From assembly GCA_020425885.1 (NCBI GenBank), contig JAGQRA010000797.1, positions 1-8,670 of the forward strand: DNA of 8,670 nt. Direction: 5' to 3'. This DNA is from Planctomycetota bacterium. GTDB lineage: Bacteria; Planctomycetota; UBA1135; UBA2386. The position numbers were made by a program, and so were the translations under genes. Under the pieces are notes generated by a model, which worked only from the letters and a program-made list of their open reading frames with translations, was not told where the DNA came from and did no database searches. Positions 1-8,670 of the stretch are shown here, in pieces; position 1 is the stretch's first letter, and each line of letters begins with the position of its first letter.

Positions 1-26
1 AAGACGGCATGAACAAGACCATCGGT

Positions 27-59
27 CAGCCGTGTGCGGGAAAACCGCATGCACGGTTG
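27..59 (+). ncRNA. Group II intron domain V hairpin (catalytic core)
   Basis: Domain V is the catalytic hairpin of group II introns and binds the active-site metals. Here the lower stem pairs C27-G59 and 28-34 (AGCCGTG) with 52-58 (CACGGTT), including the usual G-U pair next to the AGC triad (28-30). A two-base bulge (T50, G51) lies on the 3' side, as expected. The upper stem TGCGG (35-39) pairs with CCGCA (45-49). The loop between them is GAAAA (40-44), five bases instead of the usual GNRA tetraloop, so the hairpin is 33 nt rather than the typical 34. The fit to the family is otherwise very close. Confidence 0.85.
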
Positions 60-63
60 GATA

Positions 64-122
64 GGGGGGCTTGGTTGCCGCGGGATTGCTTCTTCAACAA
101 GACCAGGTAACCAAGCTCTACC
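64..122 (+). ncRNA. Group II intron domain VI hairpin with candidate branch-point A
   Basis: Bases 69-79 pair with 106-116 as an 11-bp stem with one G-U pair. It extends through 66-68 with 117-119 using G-U and G-C pairs. A120 is then unpaired on the 3' side and followed by C121-C122, which can pair with G64-G65. This is the arrangement of a domain VI stem with its bulged branch-point adenosine a few bases before the 3' splice site. Its position directly after domain V supports the assignment. The branch A is an inference from folding by eye. Confidence 0.7.
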
Positions 123-123
123 A

Positions 124-906
124 ATGCAGACCCGCGTTCACGTAATGCGCCGGCGGCGCGAACTCGGCGGTGGCTCGTATGCGATCGAGGTCGACGGGCC
201 GATCCCGCCCACCGATCCGGGCCAGTTCTACATGCTGCGGACCCGCGAACGGTGGCCGGTGTTGCTGCCGCGGCCGCTGTCGCTCTACGACCGGGCCGAC
301 GACGGATCGTGGGGCAGTTTCCTCGTCAAGTCGGTCGGCCCCGGGACCAGAGCCCTGCTCGACCTCGAACCCGGCGAGGAACTCGTGCTCAATGGCCCGC
401 TCGGCCGCGCGTTCCCGGCCGAGGTCGAGGATCCGGTCTGCATCGCCGGCGGCGTCGGGCTGGCGCCGTTCCTGTTGCTGGCGCGGCGGCGGGCGGCGGC
501 GGGCGGCAGGTTGCGGCTGTTGTTCGGCGGTCGCTCGCGCGATGCGCTCGCCGGCCTCGACGACTTCGTCAAGATCGCCGATGTCCACACCTCGACCGAC
601 GATGGCAGTCATGGTCATCACGGTCTGGTGACGGGGCTGCTCGACGAGCTGGTGACGAACGGCGAGGTGAGGCGTGGCGAGGTCGTGTTCTGCTGCGGGC
701 CGGACCCGATGATGGCAGCGGTCGCGGCCGCGTGTCGGCAGCACGAGCTGCGCTGCTTCCTGAGCCTCGAGACCTACATGGCCTGCGGCTATGGCGTCTG
801 CAACGGCTGCACGGTCAAGGTCGATGGACCGCGCTTCAAGGGATGGCCGTACTCGAAGACGTGCATCGAGGGGCCGGTCTACGAGGCCTTCGAGCTGGTC
901 GAATAG
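124..906 (+). CDS. pyrK: Dihydroorotate dehydrogenase B, electron transfer subunit (PyrK type)
   Basis: This is the FAD/[2Fe-2S] subunit that carries electrons from dihydroorotate oxidation (PyrD) to NAD+ in pyrimidine biosynthesis, in the cytoplasm. The 260-aa product has the family's full layout: an N-terminal ferredoxin-reductase-like barrel with the FAD motif RPLSLYD (50-56), GPLGRAF (91-97), the nucleotide-binding loop GGVGLAPF (109-116), CGPDPMM (191-197), and a C-terminal iron-sulfur motif with Cys 221, 226, 229 and 247, the usual four ligands of PyrK. Start: ATG at 124 gives an N-terminus that aligns naturally with PyrK (RVHVMRRRREL then PGQFYML). The frame is open further upstream, but that part lies inside the intron. 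There is no convincing ribosome binding site before 124, as expected if the native leader is the 5' exon to the left. No pyrD follows: the next gene is convergent. Its partner must lie left of the window or elsewhere. Confidence 0.93.
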   Translation: MQTRVHVMRRRRELGGGSYAIEVDGPIPPTDPGQFYMLRTRERWPVLLPRPLSLYDRADDGSWGSFLVKSVGPGTRALLDLEPGEELVLNGPLGRAFPAEVEDPVCIAGGVGLAPFLLLARRRAAAGGRLRLLFGGRSRDALAGLDDFVKIADVHTSTDDGSHGHHGLVTGLLDELVTNGEVRRGEVVFCCGPDPMMAAVAAACRQHELRCFLSLETYMACGYGVCNGCTVKVDGPRFKGWPYSKTCIEGPVYEAFELVE

Positions 907-3145: not shown

Positions 3146-4630
3146 CTACTTCGCGTCGCCGTCCAGCGTCTGCAAGCGGAACACCGGCGAGGCGACATGC
3201 TCGCGTTGCATGATGGTTTCGAGGTCGGTCAAGTGCGTGACCTGCTTCGCGGCGAGGTTGGTGGTCTCGCCGACATCGGCGTCGAGGTCGAACAGCTCGG
3301 TCACGGCCGGCCCCTTCTGCAATCGGCTGCGCACCAGCTTCAGCTTGCCCTGCCACACCGCCTGCCAGCCGCCGTAGCCGGCGAACTCGCGGTAGAGGAA
3401 CGGCCGCGGCTCCTGGCGCTCGCCGCGCAACGTCGCGGCGAAGCTGATGCCGTCGATGCCCTCGGGGACTGTGGCCCCGCACAGTTCGGCCAGCGTCGGC
3501 ATCCAGTCCTCGAAGCCGGTGATGCGGTCGCTCTCGCTGCCGGCCGGCACATGGCCCGGCCAGCGCACGATTCCCGGCACGCGGACGCCGCCCTCGTACA
3601 TCGAGCCCTTGCGGCCGCGCAGCTCGCCGCAGGACGCGAAGAAGTCGACGTCGGTGCCGCCGATCGGGCTGTGGGTGGCGCCGTTGTCGGACGTGAACAC
3701 GACGATCGTGTCGGCGGCGAGCCCGAGTTCGTCGAGCAGGTCGAGCAACGTGCCGACCGAGCGATCGAGGCGGCTGATCATCGCCGCGTAGGCGGCGCGC
3801 GGCGTGCGATGCGGCGTGTAGCCCCTGCCGCCGGGATAGGGCGTCTCCTCGAACTTGCCGGCGTAGGCCGCGAGCTCCGCATCCGGAACATGCAGCGCCA
3901 GATGCGGAATGACCGACGGGTAGTAGAGGAAGAACGGGCGCGACCGGTTGTCCTTCAGGAACGCCGACGCCGCGGCGAGGATGCGATCGGGCGCGTAGTC
4001 GCTGCCCTTGAAGCTGGCATAGCTCGCCGGGTCGTTGACATCGGCGCCTGCGGCCAGCTTGCCGTGCCCCGGCACCGGCGGCTCGTTCTTCAAAGCGATG
4101 CGCTCGGCATCGTCCCAGAGATAAGACGGCCAGTACGAATGGGCGTGGCGCTGGCAGTTGTAGCCGAAGAAGTGGTCGAAGCCGCGCTCGAGCGGGCTGC
4201 CATACGAGTCGACCGGTCCGAGGCCCCACTTGCCGTAGCCGCCGGTGCGATAGCCGGCGCCTTGCATGACTTCGCCGAGCGTGGTCTCGCCCTTCGGCAG
4301 CGGCCACTGCCCTTCGGGTTGCTGCTCCTTGTTGTCCCGCACCGCGGCGTGCCCCGGGTGCTTGCCCGTCATCAGCACGCAGCGCGAAGGTGCGCAGACC
4401 GGCGATCCCGAGTAGTGGCGCACGAGCCGCATGCCCTGTCCGGCCAGGGCATCGAGCCGCGGCGTCGCGATCTTCTCCTGGCCGAAGCAGCCGAGTTCGC
4501 GGTAGCCGAGATCGTCGGCGAGGACGAAGACGACGTTGGGCGGCCTCTTCTTGGTGCCGGCATCCTGCGCCGAGGCGAGGGCGAGCGGAGCCGCGAAGGT
4601 GGTGAGGAACGCGACGGCGAGGCGAAGCAT
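3146..4630 (-). CDS. Secreted formylglycine-dependent sulfatase (arylsulfatase-like)
   Basis: The 494-aa product is a type I sulfatase that hydrolyses sulfate esters, probably outside the cytoplasm. It has an N-terminal signal peptide (hydrophobic 4-19, likely cut after ASA at 19-21). Next come the metal-binding DD pair (D39, D40 in VLADDLGY), the CxPSR maturation motif CAPSR (79-83), whose C79 would become formylglycine, GYGKWGLG (131-138, K134), a PHLALH block (H243, H247), the metal-binding SDNG (314-317) and RGRKGSMYEGG (338-348). The C-terminal small domain ends with FDLDADVGETTNLA. All key residues are present and the length is normal, so it should be active once modified by a formylglycine-generating enzyme encoded elsewhere. 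The substrate cannot be told from sequence alone. The start at 4630 gives a good signal peptide but has no Shine-Dalgarno site. A long hairpin lies 6 nt upstream. The beta-domain gene follows in the same direction. Confidence 0.95.
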   Translation of the reverse strand: MLRLAVAFLTTFAAPLALASAQDAGTKKRPPNVVFVLADDLGYRELGCFGQEKIATPRLDALAGQGMRLVRHYSGSPVCAPSRCVLMTGKHPGHAAVRDNKEQQPEGQWPLPKGETTLGEVMQGAGYRTGGYGKWGLGPVDSYGSPLERGFDHFFGYNCQRHAHSYWPSYLWDDAERIALKNEPPVPGHGKLAAGADVNDPASYASFKGSDYAPDRILAAASAFLKDNRSRPFFLYYPSVIPHLALHVPDAELAAYAGKFEETPYPGGRGYTPHRTPRAAYAAMISRLDRSVGTLLDLLDELGLAADTIVVFTSDNGATHSPIGGTDVDFFASCGELRGRKGSMYEGGVRVPGIVRWPGHVPAGSESDRITGFEDWMPTLAELCGATVPEGIDGISFAATLRGERQEPRPFLYREFAGYGGWQAVWQGKLKLVRSRLQKGPAVTELFDLDADVGETTNLAAKQVTHLTDLETIMQREHVASPVFRLQTLDGDAK

Positions 4631-4949: not shown

Positions 4950-6296
4950 TCAGTATTGGGGGCGCAGATCCTGCAGGCGCTTGGCCTTGAGTTCGAAGCG
5001 CGGCAGCTCGCCGGCCTTGGCGAGTTCGACGTTGAAGCGCAGGCCTTCGTGGGCATCGGCGAGGTCCTTGCCGAGCTGTTCGGACAGGGCGGGCCAGGTG
5101 TCCTCGCGGTCGGGCTTGAGCTCGACCTTGACCGTGATTTCGTCCTGCACGTCGTCGACGCGGGCGATCACGATCTGGAACTCCTCGACCTCCTTGTGCT
5201 CGCGCACGACGGCTTCGACGGCGCGCGGATAGACGTTGGTGCCGCGGATCAGCTTCATGTCGTCGGTGCGGCCGAGGATGCCGCCCTCGAAGATGTCGCC
5301 GGTGCGGCCGCAGTCGCAGCGATCGTGCGGCACCTTGCAGACCAGATCCTTGGTGCGGTAGCGCAGCAGCGGGATGAAGCTGCGGCCGAACGAGGTGACG
5401 ACGCGTTCGCCGCGTTCGCCGTAGCCGACCGGTTCGCCGCTGTCGGGGTCGAGCACCTCCTCGATGAAGTGATCCTCGATGATGTGCGGGCCGCCGGGCT
5501 GGTGATCGCATTCGAAGATCATGATGGTGCCGATCTCGGTCATGCCGGCGGTGTCGCCGCACTTGCCGCCCCACATCTCCTCGATCATCTTCTTCACCGC
5601 GGGGATCGAGCCGGCCGGTTCGCCGCTGACGATGACGCGCCGCACGTTGCCGTCGCGACGCAGGTTGATGCCCATCTTCTCGGCGGTCTGGCCCATGCGC
5701 AGCGCGTAGGTCGGCGTCGCGCAGACGACGGTCACACCCATCTCGACGATCTGTTTGACGCGCTGCTCGGTCGTCATGTTGCCCGAGGCGAGCGTCAGGC
5801 AGCCGAGCTTCTCACAGCAGTAGTGCGCGCCCCAGAAACCGATGAACGAGCCGTAGGAGAAGGCGAAGAAGACCTTGTCGCTCGGTCGGACGCCGAAGCC
5901 CCAGAAGCCGTAACACCACATGTCGGCGATCCACGACCAGTCCTTGCGCGAATCGAGAACGCGCAGCGGCTGCCGACCCGAGGTGCCCGAGGTCAGGTGG
6001 TAGCGGATCGCATCGTCGCGCGGCCGGGTGATCAGATCGCCGAACAGCGGCTTCTCGGCCTGGTTCGCCATCCACTCCTCGCGCGTCATGAACGGCAACC
6101 GCCGGATGTCGTCGAGGGACCGGATCTTGTCGGGCGTCACACCGGCCTTCTCGTAGAGGCGGCGATGGAACGGCGATTCGGACCAGGCGCGGCCGACGAG
6201 TTCCTGCAGGCGATGCAGCTGCAGGGCCCGCAACTGGTCCTTGGGCAGGGTCTCGATCTTGGGATTCCAGTAGGCGATGTCGGTCGCGGCGTGCAC
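4950..6296 (-). CDS. Phenylacetate-CoA ligase family AMP-forming enzyme (PaaK-like)
   Basis: The 448-aa product is an adenylate-forming ligase that activates a carboxylic acid with ATP and CoA, in the cytoplasm. Family features in order are an N-terminal region with LQELVGRAWSESPFHRRLY (30-48), the ATP loop LTSGTSG (101-107), the adenylate-binding GMTEIG (251-256), YRTKDL (313-318), a CDCGRTG element (327-333), GRTDDMKLIRGTNVYP (342-357), and a C-terminal domain with PRFELKAKRLQDL (432-444) carrying the expected catalytic-region lysines. Length and motif order match PaaK, but whether the substrate is phenylacetate, benzoate or another aryl or fatty acid cannot be told. No other phenylacetate pathway genes are present. 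Start: GTG at 6296 has GGAGG 4 nt upstream. An ATG at 6365 would add 23 residues with no family resemblance. It is the first gene of the minus-strand cluster. Confidence 0.92.
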   Translation of the reverse strand: MHAATDIAYWNPKIETLPKDQLRALQLHRLQELVGRAWSESPFHRRLYEKAGVTPDKIRSLDDIRRLPFMTREEWMANQAEKPLFGDLITRPRDDAIRYHLTSGTSGRQPLRVLDSRKDWSWIADMWCYGFWGFGVRPSDKVFFAFSYGSFIGFWGAHYCCEKLGCLTLASGNMTTEQRVKQIVEMGVTVVCATPTYALRMGQTAEKMGINLRRDGNVRRVIVSGEPAGSIPAVKKMIEEMWGGKCGDTAGMTEIGTIMIFECDHQPGGPHIIEDHFIEEVLDPDSGEPVGYGERGERVVTSFGRSFIPLLRYRTKDLVCKVPHDRCDCGRTGDIFEGGILGRTDDMKLIRGTNVYPRAVEAVVREHKEVEEFQIVIARVDDVQDEITVKVELKPDREDTWPALSEQLGKDLADAHEGLRFNVELAKAGELPRFELKAKRLQDLRPQY

Positions 6297-6300
6297 GGAG

Positions 6301-6305
6301 CCTCC
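6301..6305 (-). promoter_or_regulatory. Ribosome binding site deciding a GTG start at 6296
   Basis: GGAGG on the minus strand is 4 nt before the GTG codon at 6296. The spacing is slightly short, but this is the only strong Shine-Dalgarno-like site near the N-terminus of the CoA ligase. It supports the GTG over the upstream ATG. Confidence 0.55.
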
Positions 6306-6324
6306 GTTCGGGGTGAGGGTCCGT

Positions 6325-6353
6325 ACCTTAGATCGGCCCCCCTGTGCTGTCCA
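6325..6353 (-). promoter_or_regulatory. Candidate sigma70-type promoter of the minus-strand cluster
   Basis: On the minus strand a TGGACA box (6348-6353) lies 17 nt from TAAGGT (6325-6330). The -35 matches TTGACA at five of six positions, but the -10 matches TATAAT at only three of six. Transcription would start near 6318, giving a leader of about 22 nt before the GTG at 6296. The placement is good and the match moderate. Confidence 0.35.
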
Positions 6354-6419
6354 CGAATGCAGCATCGCGTCATGGGTGTCCGGACTTGCGACAGATGCCG
6401 GGACAAGGGCGCCGCCGGC

Positions 6420-6446
6420 TCAAGTGCGGGGCCGCCGGGCCGACGA
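6420..6446 (+). promoter_or_regulatory. Candidate sigma28 (FliA)-type promoter of motA-motB
   Basis: TCAAGTGC (6420-6427), an 11-nt spacer and GCCGACGA (6439-6446) follow the FliA consensus TAAAGTTT-N11-GCCGATAA at 11 of 16 positions with the exact spacing. It lies about 50 nt upstream of the motA start on the same strand. In enteric bacteria motAB is transcribed by this sigma factor, so the function fits. GC-rich sequence raises the chance of a false match. Confidence 0.4.
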
Positions 6447-6495
6447 TCCGACAGGCGGCTCGCCAAGGCTGTCGGCATCCAGGGATAAAGCGGCA

Positions 6496-7266
6496 ATGGA
6501 CATCTTCACGCCTATCGGGCTCGCGATGGCCTTCATCGGCGTCATCGGCGGCATGGTCCTCGAAGGAGGTCATCCGGGGGCGCTGCTGCAGGTCACGGCG
6601 TTCATGATCGTGATCATCGGCTCGCTCGGCGCGACGTTCGTCGCGACCTTGCCGTCCGACATGGGCTTCGCCTTCAAGTCGTTGAAGCGGATGTTCCTGC
6701 CCGGCAAATACGACTTCCACGGGCTCATGGAGAAGATCATCGAGCTCGCCAACCTGGCCCGCCGCGAAGGGCTGCTGGCGCTCGAGACCTACGCCAACAG
6801 CGGCCAGGGCGACCCCTTCCTGGTGAAGTGCCTGACGCTCGCCATCGACGGCAGCTCGGCGGAGGCGATCCGCGAGACCGTCGAGATCGACATGCATATC
6901 CAGGAGGAGGACGACAAGGCCGGCATGAAGTTCTGGGAGACCTGGGGTGCACTGGCGCCGACCGTCGGCGTGCTCGGCGCGGTGCTCGGCCTCATGCACG
7001 TCATGGGCGTGCTCGACCAGCCCGACAAGATCGGTCCCGGCATCGCGGTCGCGTTCGTCGCGACGGTCTACGGCGTCGGCTTCGCCAACATCGTGTGCCT
7101 GCCGGCGTCGTTCAAGCTCAAGCGTCACATCGAGCACGACCAGCTGCTCAAGAACATGGTGCTCGAAGGCGTCGTCGGCATCCAGTCGGGCATGGCCCCG
7201 GGCGCGCTCCGCAGCCGCCTGAAGGTGTATCTCGGCAGCCACGGCCACGCCGCCGAGAAGAAGTAG
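6496..7266 (+). CDS. motA: Flagellar motor stator protein MotA (MotC/PomA type)
   Basis: The 256-aa product is the ring-forming stator subunit that, with MotB, converts ion flow into flagellar rotation at the inner membrane. Four membrane segments are visible at about 4-22, 30-51, 150-170 and 181-202, with a cytoplasmic loop between the second and third. Conserved elements include R90 and E98 in the loop (rotor contact in MotA), APTVGVLGAVLGLMHVM (154-170) and GIAVAFVATVYGVGFAN (182-198), plus prolines 155 and 203 that match the functional prolines of MotA. In the third segment A162 sits where sodium-type PomA has Thr158, while T190 matches PomA Thr186. The block resembles proton-type MotC, so proton coupling is likely but not certain. 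Start: ATG at 6496 begins just before the first membrane helix, with AGGGA 10 nt upstream. The stop is 8 nt before motB. Confidence 0.93.
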   Translation: MDIFTPIGLAMAFIGVIGGMVLEGGHPGALLQVTAFMIVIIGSLGATFVATLPSDMGFAFKSLKRMFLPGKYDFHGLMEKIIELANLARREGLLALETYANSGQGDPFLVKCLTLAIDGSSAEAIRETVEIDMHIQEEDDKAGMKFWETWGALAPTVGVLGAVLGLMHVMGVLDQPDKIGPGIAVAFVATVYGVGFANIVCLPASFKLKRHIEHDQLLKNMVLEGVVGIQSGMAPGALRSRLKVYLGSHGHAAEKK

Positions 7267-8043: not shown

Positions 8044-8670
8044 TCAGTTCGCCGGCGTGGTCAGCATCCGGGCCAGGATCGTCTTCTGGATCATCGACGT
8101 GCCCTCGTAGATGCGCAGGGCCTGGATGTCGCGCCACAGCCGCTCGACCGGGAACGCGCTGGTGTAGCCGCGGGCGCCGTGCAGCATGACCGCGTCCTCG
8201 CACGCCTTGGCCGCGGCTTCGGTGGCGTGCAGCTTGGCCATCGCCACGTCGGCGTGCGTCTCGCTGCCGTCGAGCCGGCGCCGGGCGCAGCGATGGACCA
8301 GGGCGCGGCTGGCATGCAACGCGGTCAGGTGATCGGCGAGCCGCTCCTGCACCATCTGGAAGTCGGCGAGCCGTTGGCCGAACTGCTCGCGGTCGACGGT
8401 GAACGCGACGGCCGCGGCGAGCGCGGCGCGATGGATGCCGACCGCGCCGGCGGCGACGGAGATCCGGCCCGCGGCCAGCCCGCCCATCGCGACCGCGAAA
8501 CCTCTGCCCGGTTCGCCGAGGATGTCGTCGTCGCCGGCCGGGAATGCCGCGAAGCGCAGCTCGGCGTGATCGCTGCCACGGTGGCCGAGCTCGACGCCGG
8601 GCATCGGCGAGCGCGACAATCCGGGACGCGAGGTCTCGACCAGGAAGGCGGTGATGCCTTTGCGGCCGAG
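8044..8670 (-). CDS. Acyl-CoA dehydrogenase, C-terminal part (5' end outside the window)
   Basis: The visible 208 residues are the C-terminal portion of a flavin-dependent acyl-CoA dehydrogenase, which makes the alpha-beta double bond of acyl-CoA esters. The frame stays open to the right edge: GRKGITAFLVE at the edge and MGHRG-like GHRGSD are part of the middle beta domain. The all-alpha C-terminal domain has GRISVAAGAVGIHRAAL, REQFGQRLADFQMVQERLAD, MLHGARGYTSAFPVERLWRDIQ and RIYEGTSMIQK. The Glu of YEGT (about residue 189 of the visible part) matches the catalytic base of medium-chain enzymes (E376 type), so activity is expected. The stop is 34 nt from the convergent motB stop. Substrate chain length and electron acceptor (usually ETF) cannot be told. 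Confidence 0.93.
   Translation of the reverse strand, partial: LGRKGITAFLVETSRPGLSRSPMPGVELGHRGSDHAELRFAAFPAGDDDILGEPGRGFAVAMGGLAAGRISVAAGAVGIHRAALAAAVAFTVDREQFGQRLADFQMVQERLADHLTALHASRALVHRCARRRLDGSETHADVAMAKLHATEAAAKACEDAVMLHGARGYTSAFPVERLWRDIQALRIYEGTSMIQKTILARMLTTPAN

Follow-up and report, generated by a model that had tools for sequence, protein, structure and literature searches.

A lineage of group II introns, seen chiefly in Planctomycetota but present in Streptomycetaceae too, probably inserts in most cases at the sequence (C)AT/G located 6-11 nt downstream of a promoter -10 box, where it most likely splits the start codon of its host gene as AU/G (the slash marks the cut). We describe this lineage from a contig of a Planctomycetota bacterium (JAGQRA010000797.1, assembly GCA_020425885.1), analysed over its 8,670 nucleotides and called here the window. 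The window opens partway through the maturase gene of a mobile group II intron that occupies the pyrK start codon.

The intron end at pyrK

Positions 1-125 are the 3' end of a group II intron, made up of the maturase tail, domain V (DV) and domain VI (DVI), and ending CTACCAAT/G on the ATG of pyrK. The features of this region are:

1..12, + strand: end of the maturase, last three codons and stop (K T A stop), identical to the L090 maturase end; the rest lies beyond the contig end
26..60, + strand: domain V hairpin (RF00029 at 25-127, fold, 24-member alignment)
64..122, + strand: domain VI hairpin with the presumed branch-point A120 bulged (fold; seven DVI pairs with two-sided changes)
123..125, + strand: presumed last intron bases AAT (CTACCAATG at 41 of 43 planctomycete 3' sites)
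125/126, + strand: 3' splice site, most likely here, uncertain by 1-2 nt (ATG at both junctions)
124..126, + strand: start codon ATG of pyrK, most likely split AT/G (23 of 23 intron-free relatives match from that codon)
124..906, + strand: pyrK, dihydroorotate dehydrogenase electron transfer subunit, 260 aa (Pfam PF10418 and PF00175; relatives so named by their sources)

The Rfam group II intron model RF00029 matches positions 25-127 with 41.1 bits (E 1.6e-5), a score just over the gathering threshold of 40. The minimum free energy fold of 25-126 (-53.0 kcal/mol) forms the DV and DVI hairpins and leaves A120 bulged, while an alignment of 24 family members displays changes on both sides with pairing kept at 9 of the 24 predicted pairs, 7 of them in DVI. 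Positions 1-12 (AAG ACG GCA TGA) encode K-T-A-stop, with which the maturase of the related intron L090 also ends (...YPGSKTA stop). Over the matching stretch, window 1-126 shares 119 of 124 aligned bases with L086, and as many with L087. A preliminary description of this DNA had placed a group II intron 3' end at 1-126, and the Rfam match, fold, covariation and maturase tail bear it out; the alternative end that it offered, at 120-121, is disfavoured by the invariant family sequence, which continues to AAT(G). The contig starts within the intron, so that this copy's domains I-IV and 5' exon lie off the contig: intron body and 5' exon were read in relatives, from 20 planctomycete genomes and from actinomycete replicons.

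ATG 124 is the native start of pyrK. The match opens there in all 23 close intron-free relatives (L001-L022 and L035), which start with ATG in 21 cases and GTG in two, and ATG stands at the equivalent place in a related gene without the intron (L023). Judged by its PyrK relatives, the source of the contig is a planctomycete. That pyrK is a housekeeping gene, as first described, is agreed. The accompanying argument that splicing would restore a native leader and ribosome-binding site is weak, because TANNNT lies 6-14 nt upstream of the start in 20 of the 23 intron-free relatives (6-11 nt in 15), which suggests that most of their mRNAs are leaderless. Expression of pyrK may plausibly depend on splicing. 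The remainder of the window holds open reading frames that, judged by eye, would encode a DUF2237-type protein (931-1329, -), a sulfatase (3146-4630, -), a phenylacetate-CoA ligase (4950-6365, -), MotA with MotB after it (6277-7266 for MotA, +) and an acyl-CoA dehydrogenase (8044-8670, -).

A second planctomycete pyrK, whose product is 51% identical to that of the window, carries at its start a remnant of about 215 nt (L027:2397-2611): a short 5'-end piece followed by a DV-DVI that is related to the window's and ends CTACCAATG on the pyrK ATG. Its 5' junction has TACACT 6 nt before ATG 2395, its 3' end reads AATG, and an RF00029 search of this locus did not reach the gathering score. Such a remnant is too short to splice alone, so dependence on splicing need not last: here the host gene seems to have outlived the core of the intron and its ability to splice.

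Distribution of the family and its 3' ends

A DV pattern search gave 7 places in 5 of 30 genomes with PyrK relatives and 35 places in 14 of 154 genomes of the order; it matched 14 of 392 genomes drawn from the phylum, 5 of which carry other intron types. By their 3' ends, family members are present in 20 planctomycete genomes, G354 by a variant end only (CGACCAATG at L165, excluded from the site count). The sequence CTACCAATG is read at 41 of the 43 distinct planctomycete 3' sites, the two exceptions being CTACCGATG (L095) and CTACCCGTG (L163). As an informal control, no end of the CTACCAATG type occurs in the 150 nt after DV at ten other group II loci of G240, G493, G462, G214 and G399, nor in 110 nt of the other group II introns L107 and L115 of G063. 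Copies in Streptomyces cadmiisoli, Serratia symbiotica, Embleya NBC_00888, Streptomyces NBC_01643 and Rhodococcus WAY2 have different 3' ends. Three short copies of 849, 1005 and 818 nt (L123, L126 and L183) have both ends intact and are perhaps spliced in trans by the maturase of another copy.

5' junctions mostly lie behind a -10 box

The 5' junctions were collected by a script anchored on a downstream motif and the 5' box of the intron, and blind to both ATG and promoter. It kept 28 distinct junctions, 27 from planctomycetes and one from Embleya. Every one of them falls within a start-codon triplet (26 ATG, 2 GTG), and at 26 a TANNNT ends 6-11 nt upstream (25 of these at 6-9 nt), with no TANNNT elsewhere within 47 nt of the kept junctions. 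In a background of 88 genes from 28 loci, such a box precedes the first ATG of 10 genes or, more loosely, any ATG of the first third of 16 genes (Fisher P 1.4e-15 and 7.6e-13 against the junctions). Eight further family junctions, dropped by the filter of the script, were read by eye: five fit (L148, L200, L210, L213 and L224), two have ATG without the box (L193 and L220) and one has neither (L140). Their addition brings the box to 31 and the start-codon triplet to 35 of 36 junctions. The five without a box are L140, L145, which has TAGGGG, L150, L193 and L220.

One of these, L193:2952-3010, is a 5' remnant in Streptomyces scopuliridis, located without a -10 box immediately behind a perfect-looking inverted repeat after acnA. 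It is the only 5' junction that was noticed behind an inverted repeat, against 26 of 28 behind TANNNT.

Leaderless genes have been described as marked by a TANNNT that precedes the start by about 10-12 bp (PMC3160421 and PMC12340547); the upstream TANNNT at 26 of the 28 junctions identifies the genes behind them as putatively leaderless. Across 271,114 bases of related loci there are 28 instances of the combined motif TANNNT-N6..9-ATG in which C precedes ATG, 21 of them ahead of an ORF of at least 120 aa, whereas a shifted control motif occurs 5 times in these bases, once ahead of such an ORF. From these junctions, the lineage appears to target CAT/G behind a -10 box, and since the box and CATG together mark the starts of leaderless genes, the intron would usually land in a start codon.

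An actinomycete copy allows comparison with empty sites. In the complete record NZ_CP108777.1 of Embleya sp. NBC_00896, a 1976-nt intron lies between GGGACTACGGTGCGTCCAT and GACCGAAACCTGG, the latter beginning a gene whose relatives are annotated as protein-tyrosine phosphatase, with TACGGT-N6-AT/ at the 5' junction. The intron-free orthologue of Nonomuraea gerenzanensis reads TACGCT-N7-ATGACCGAGACCTGG and that of Streptomyces NBC_00158 reads TACGCT-N6-GTG; the -10 box therefore belongs to the host. Splicing at AU/G in Embleya would join ...GCGTCCAT to GACCGAAACC. In Streptomyces NBC_00046, a 3' end CTACCAGTG stands ahead of a 74-codon frame.

Position of the cut

Group II introns begin with GUGYG and end in AY. 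The bases that follow the junction ATG in this family, GTG, TCG or GAG and then YGTC, recur within genomes and hence belong to the intron. As the 5' ends of relatives read AT/G ahead of these bases (the 3' end being AAT), either one base is inserted or the cut falls after ATG. The exact cut is ambiguous because ATG stands at both junctions. With AU/G...AAU/G, G is the first intron base in every subtype and AU stands at the end; if the cut instead follows AUG, the distances to GYG and to the branch A are the usual ones. We favour AU/G with reasonable confidence, and under either cut the start codon would be in frame in the joined RNA. The first base of the start codon can be assigned to the 5' exon, since two junctions have GTG. 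These GTG junctions (L206 and L215) also make it unlikely that the intron is cut ahead of the start codon, as they come from a genome, G117, whose 3' ends read AATG. Among the options of the preliminary description, the family junctions thus favour an intron end at T125, with the start codon completed by the 5' exon.

Both ends were sought at 15 loci, five of which gave no 5' end. The ten two-ended copies (818-2053 nt) all rebuild ATG when joined, and in seven a long or domain-bearing host frame follows; in L121, L180 and L183 it does not clearly do so. A PAP2-phosphatase identity considered for the exons of L094 and L121 was set aside, the 3' exon piece having no Pfam match.

Host genes

Sequence continues beyond 42 of the 43 3' sites, the L086 site ending its contig. 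At least 60 codons are open from the start codon at 35 of the 42, including the SDR of L095/L122, and fewer at L085, L098, L099, L131, L164, L169 and L175. At two of the 35, L083 and L094, the open frame appears not to be the right one, which leaves 33 of 42 sites that open a plausible host gene. Thirty of these 33 have a Pfam match (below gathering scores for L117) and L088, L137 and L166 have none. The matches are diverse: DAO, galactokinase, CutA1, MobB, ScpA, ABC ATPases, PdxA, methyltransferase, asparaginase and YebC, together with glycosyltransferase, sulfatase, methylmalonyl-CoA mutase, TANGO2, dTDP-sugar epimerase, SDR and others. For 18 of these 30 genes, it starts at most 35 residues in and at profile positions 1-5, as expected of true N-termini. 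ORF length by itself was rejected as proof of start codons, 969 of 1702 CATG sites in related loci opening at least 60 codons.

Some sites do not conform. Nine of the 42 have no plausible gene at the ATG, which counts against start codons as the general target, and 12 are without a plausible frame or without a Pfam match; there are copies within coding sequence and others apart from genes. At L131 of G117, the host frame is stopped after 15 codons from the ATG and resumes in frame, perhaps in a decayed gene.

A proposed mode of targeting and splicing

The maturases of three relatives were searched for domains. All three match TIGR04416 as well as RVT_1 and GIIM, and none has a profile match to an endonuclease domain. 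The maturase frame of L088:4014-6056 extends without a stop from the start codon of the host gene across the intron, for 680 aa. Translation of the maturase from the host ATG as a general rule was rejected, as this frame is open in L088 and not in L127, L090 or L125. A hairpin of the type GCCG-NTCATGTCN-CGGC lies 204-283 nt into the intron in the 12 members matched, 10 of which present CATG in the loop. This CAUG loop, complementary to the exon CAUG, is likely to be EBS1 of domain I.

We propose that the CAUG loop, as EBS1, would pair with the exon CAUG, while the -10 box would be read by the maturase or made accessible by RNA polymerase opening. The box must count, because four bases cannot give the precision observed. 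RNA from the host promoter would begin about 7 nt after the box, leaving a 5' exon of about 2-8 nt that ends in AU; splicing, inferred here from sequence, would join this AU to G and so rebuild a leaderless AUG. In unspliced RNA, the pyrK start would be an internal AAUG about 2 kb into the molecule. Against this scheme, a 5' exon of 2-8 nt would leave almost no IBS1/IBS2, which makes such splicing hard.

The proposal takes two forms. The maturase and the intron RNA may simply read TANNNT and CATG as a bipartite sequence, without any role for transcription, and we regard this plain form as a strong contender, if slightly on the doubtful side. It agrees with the motif census, whose 21 hits ahead of ORFs among 28 (against 1 among 5 for the control) give a share of gene starts resembling that of the 3' sites (33 of 42), but a spacer of 6 to 11 nt suits RNA polymerase better than a rigid RNA-protein footprint. 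In the bolder form, the ribonucleoprotein inserts in the strand exposed by polymerase at leaderless -10 boxes, at about +2/+3, and the gene is read only from mRNA joined to the 2-8 nt AU exon; as a whole, we consider this unlikely. Sequence recognition and polymerase exposure are not separated here, because the motif census leads mostly to gene starts anyway.

Alternatively, the intron could insert at many CATG sites and persist mainly in start codons, where the regenerated AATG, or else splicing, would leave the gene in a usable state. An intron ending in AATG does leave the host frame readable, the pyrK of L027 has survived the loss of splicing, and there are copies within or away from genes; yet intergenic sites should be tolerated at least as well, and all 28 kept junctions fall in a start-codon triplet. 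As host selection also leaves the spacing of the -10 box in 26 of 28 unexplained, we find this decidedly improbable. Somewhat less so, though still improbable, is that the window intron is a dead remnant and that pyrK is read from AATG without splicing. The window reveals a 3' end only, and the copy at the L027 pyrK cannot splice alone; against this, the DV and DVI of the window pair well, the 119 of 124 shared bases are shared with active-looking copies, and the visible intron end contains no TANNNT upstream of ATG 124, so that no new promoter of this kind is seen. An assembly artefact joining a repeat end to pyrK would be a concern with sources that are mostly metagenome assemblies, their contigs often ending in the intron. 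It is extremely improbable here: independent assemblies and ten two-ended copies give junctions that agree to the base, and so do a 6.9 Mb contig (G035) and the complete record of Embleya.

Discussion

According to a review (PMC4424553), most bacterial group II introns lie outside housekeeping genes, and those of class C target terminators. The insertion site at pyrK was initially called unusual; this stands for bacterial group II introns at large, according to the same review, but not for the present family, of which start codons are the usual site. A likeness to group IIC would lie in a putative short exon pairing combined with an outside landmark in place of a long homing site, and in the lack of an endonuclease domain; the landmark itself differs, being a transcription terminator or attC in group IIC (PMC4424553) and, in our reading, a promoter -10 box with a start codon here.

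The nearest precedent that we found for a bacterial group II intron in a translation-relevant codon of a housekeeping gene is that of Azotobacter vinelandii groEL, which sits in the groEL termination codon (PMC8283771) and is assigned to a monophyletic subset that carries a large 5' insertion (PMC4465626). Compared by description, that intron concerns the stop codon of one gene, and the present family the start codons of many genes behind -10 boxes. Some of the targeting may already be on record in papers that deal with the A. vinelandii intron and its lineage (Ferat 2003; Michel 2007). TeI3 of Thermosynechococcus elongatus, a second likeness, concerns group II introns inserted adjoining start codons (PMC2882425); it occupies one conserved site between two start codons of the RT gene of another intron, whereas the present family uses many unrelated host genes. 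Among the matches listed from the open-licence literature, in the text available for them, we found no description of -10 or general start-codon targeting, TeI3 being the only near case; start-codon targeting was also sought in the available parts of PMC4028801, PMC8919778, PMC4424553 and PMC2882425, where again only TeI3 comes near. Targeting of the start codon and -10 box looks new.

Such a lineage would add a class of targets, the promoter and start codon of leaderless genes, to homing sites, terminators and attC. It would let splicing control the translation of metabolic genes in bacteria, whose group II introns are mostly found elsewhere than in housekeeping genes, and it raises the question of how splicing by a ribozyme could proceed when the 5' exon is nearly absent. 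It also points to a reverse-splicing particle that takes a gene-start signal as its target. If the bolder form of the proposal were true, the element would be a promoter-homing retroelement with an extremely short group II 5' exon, and its splicing would act as a translation switch for housekeeping genes.
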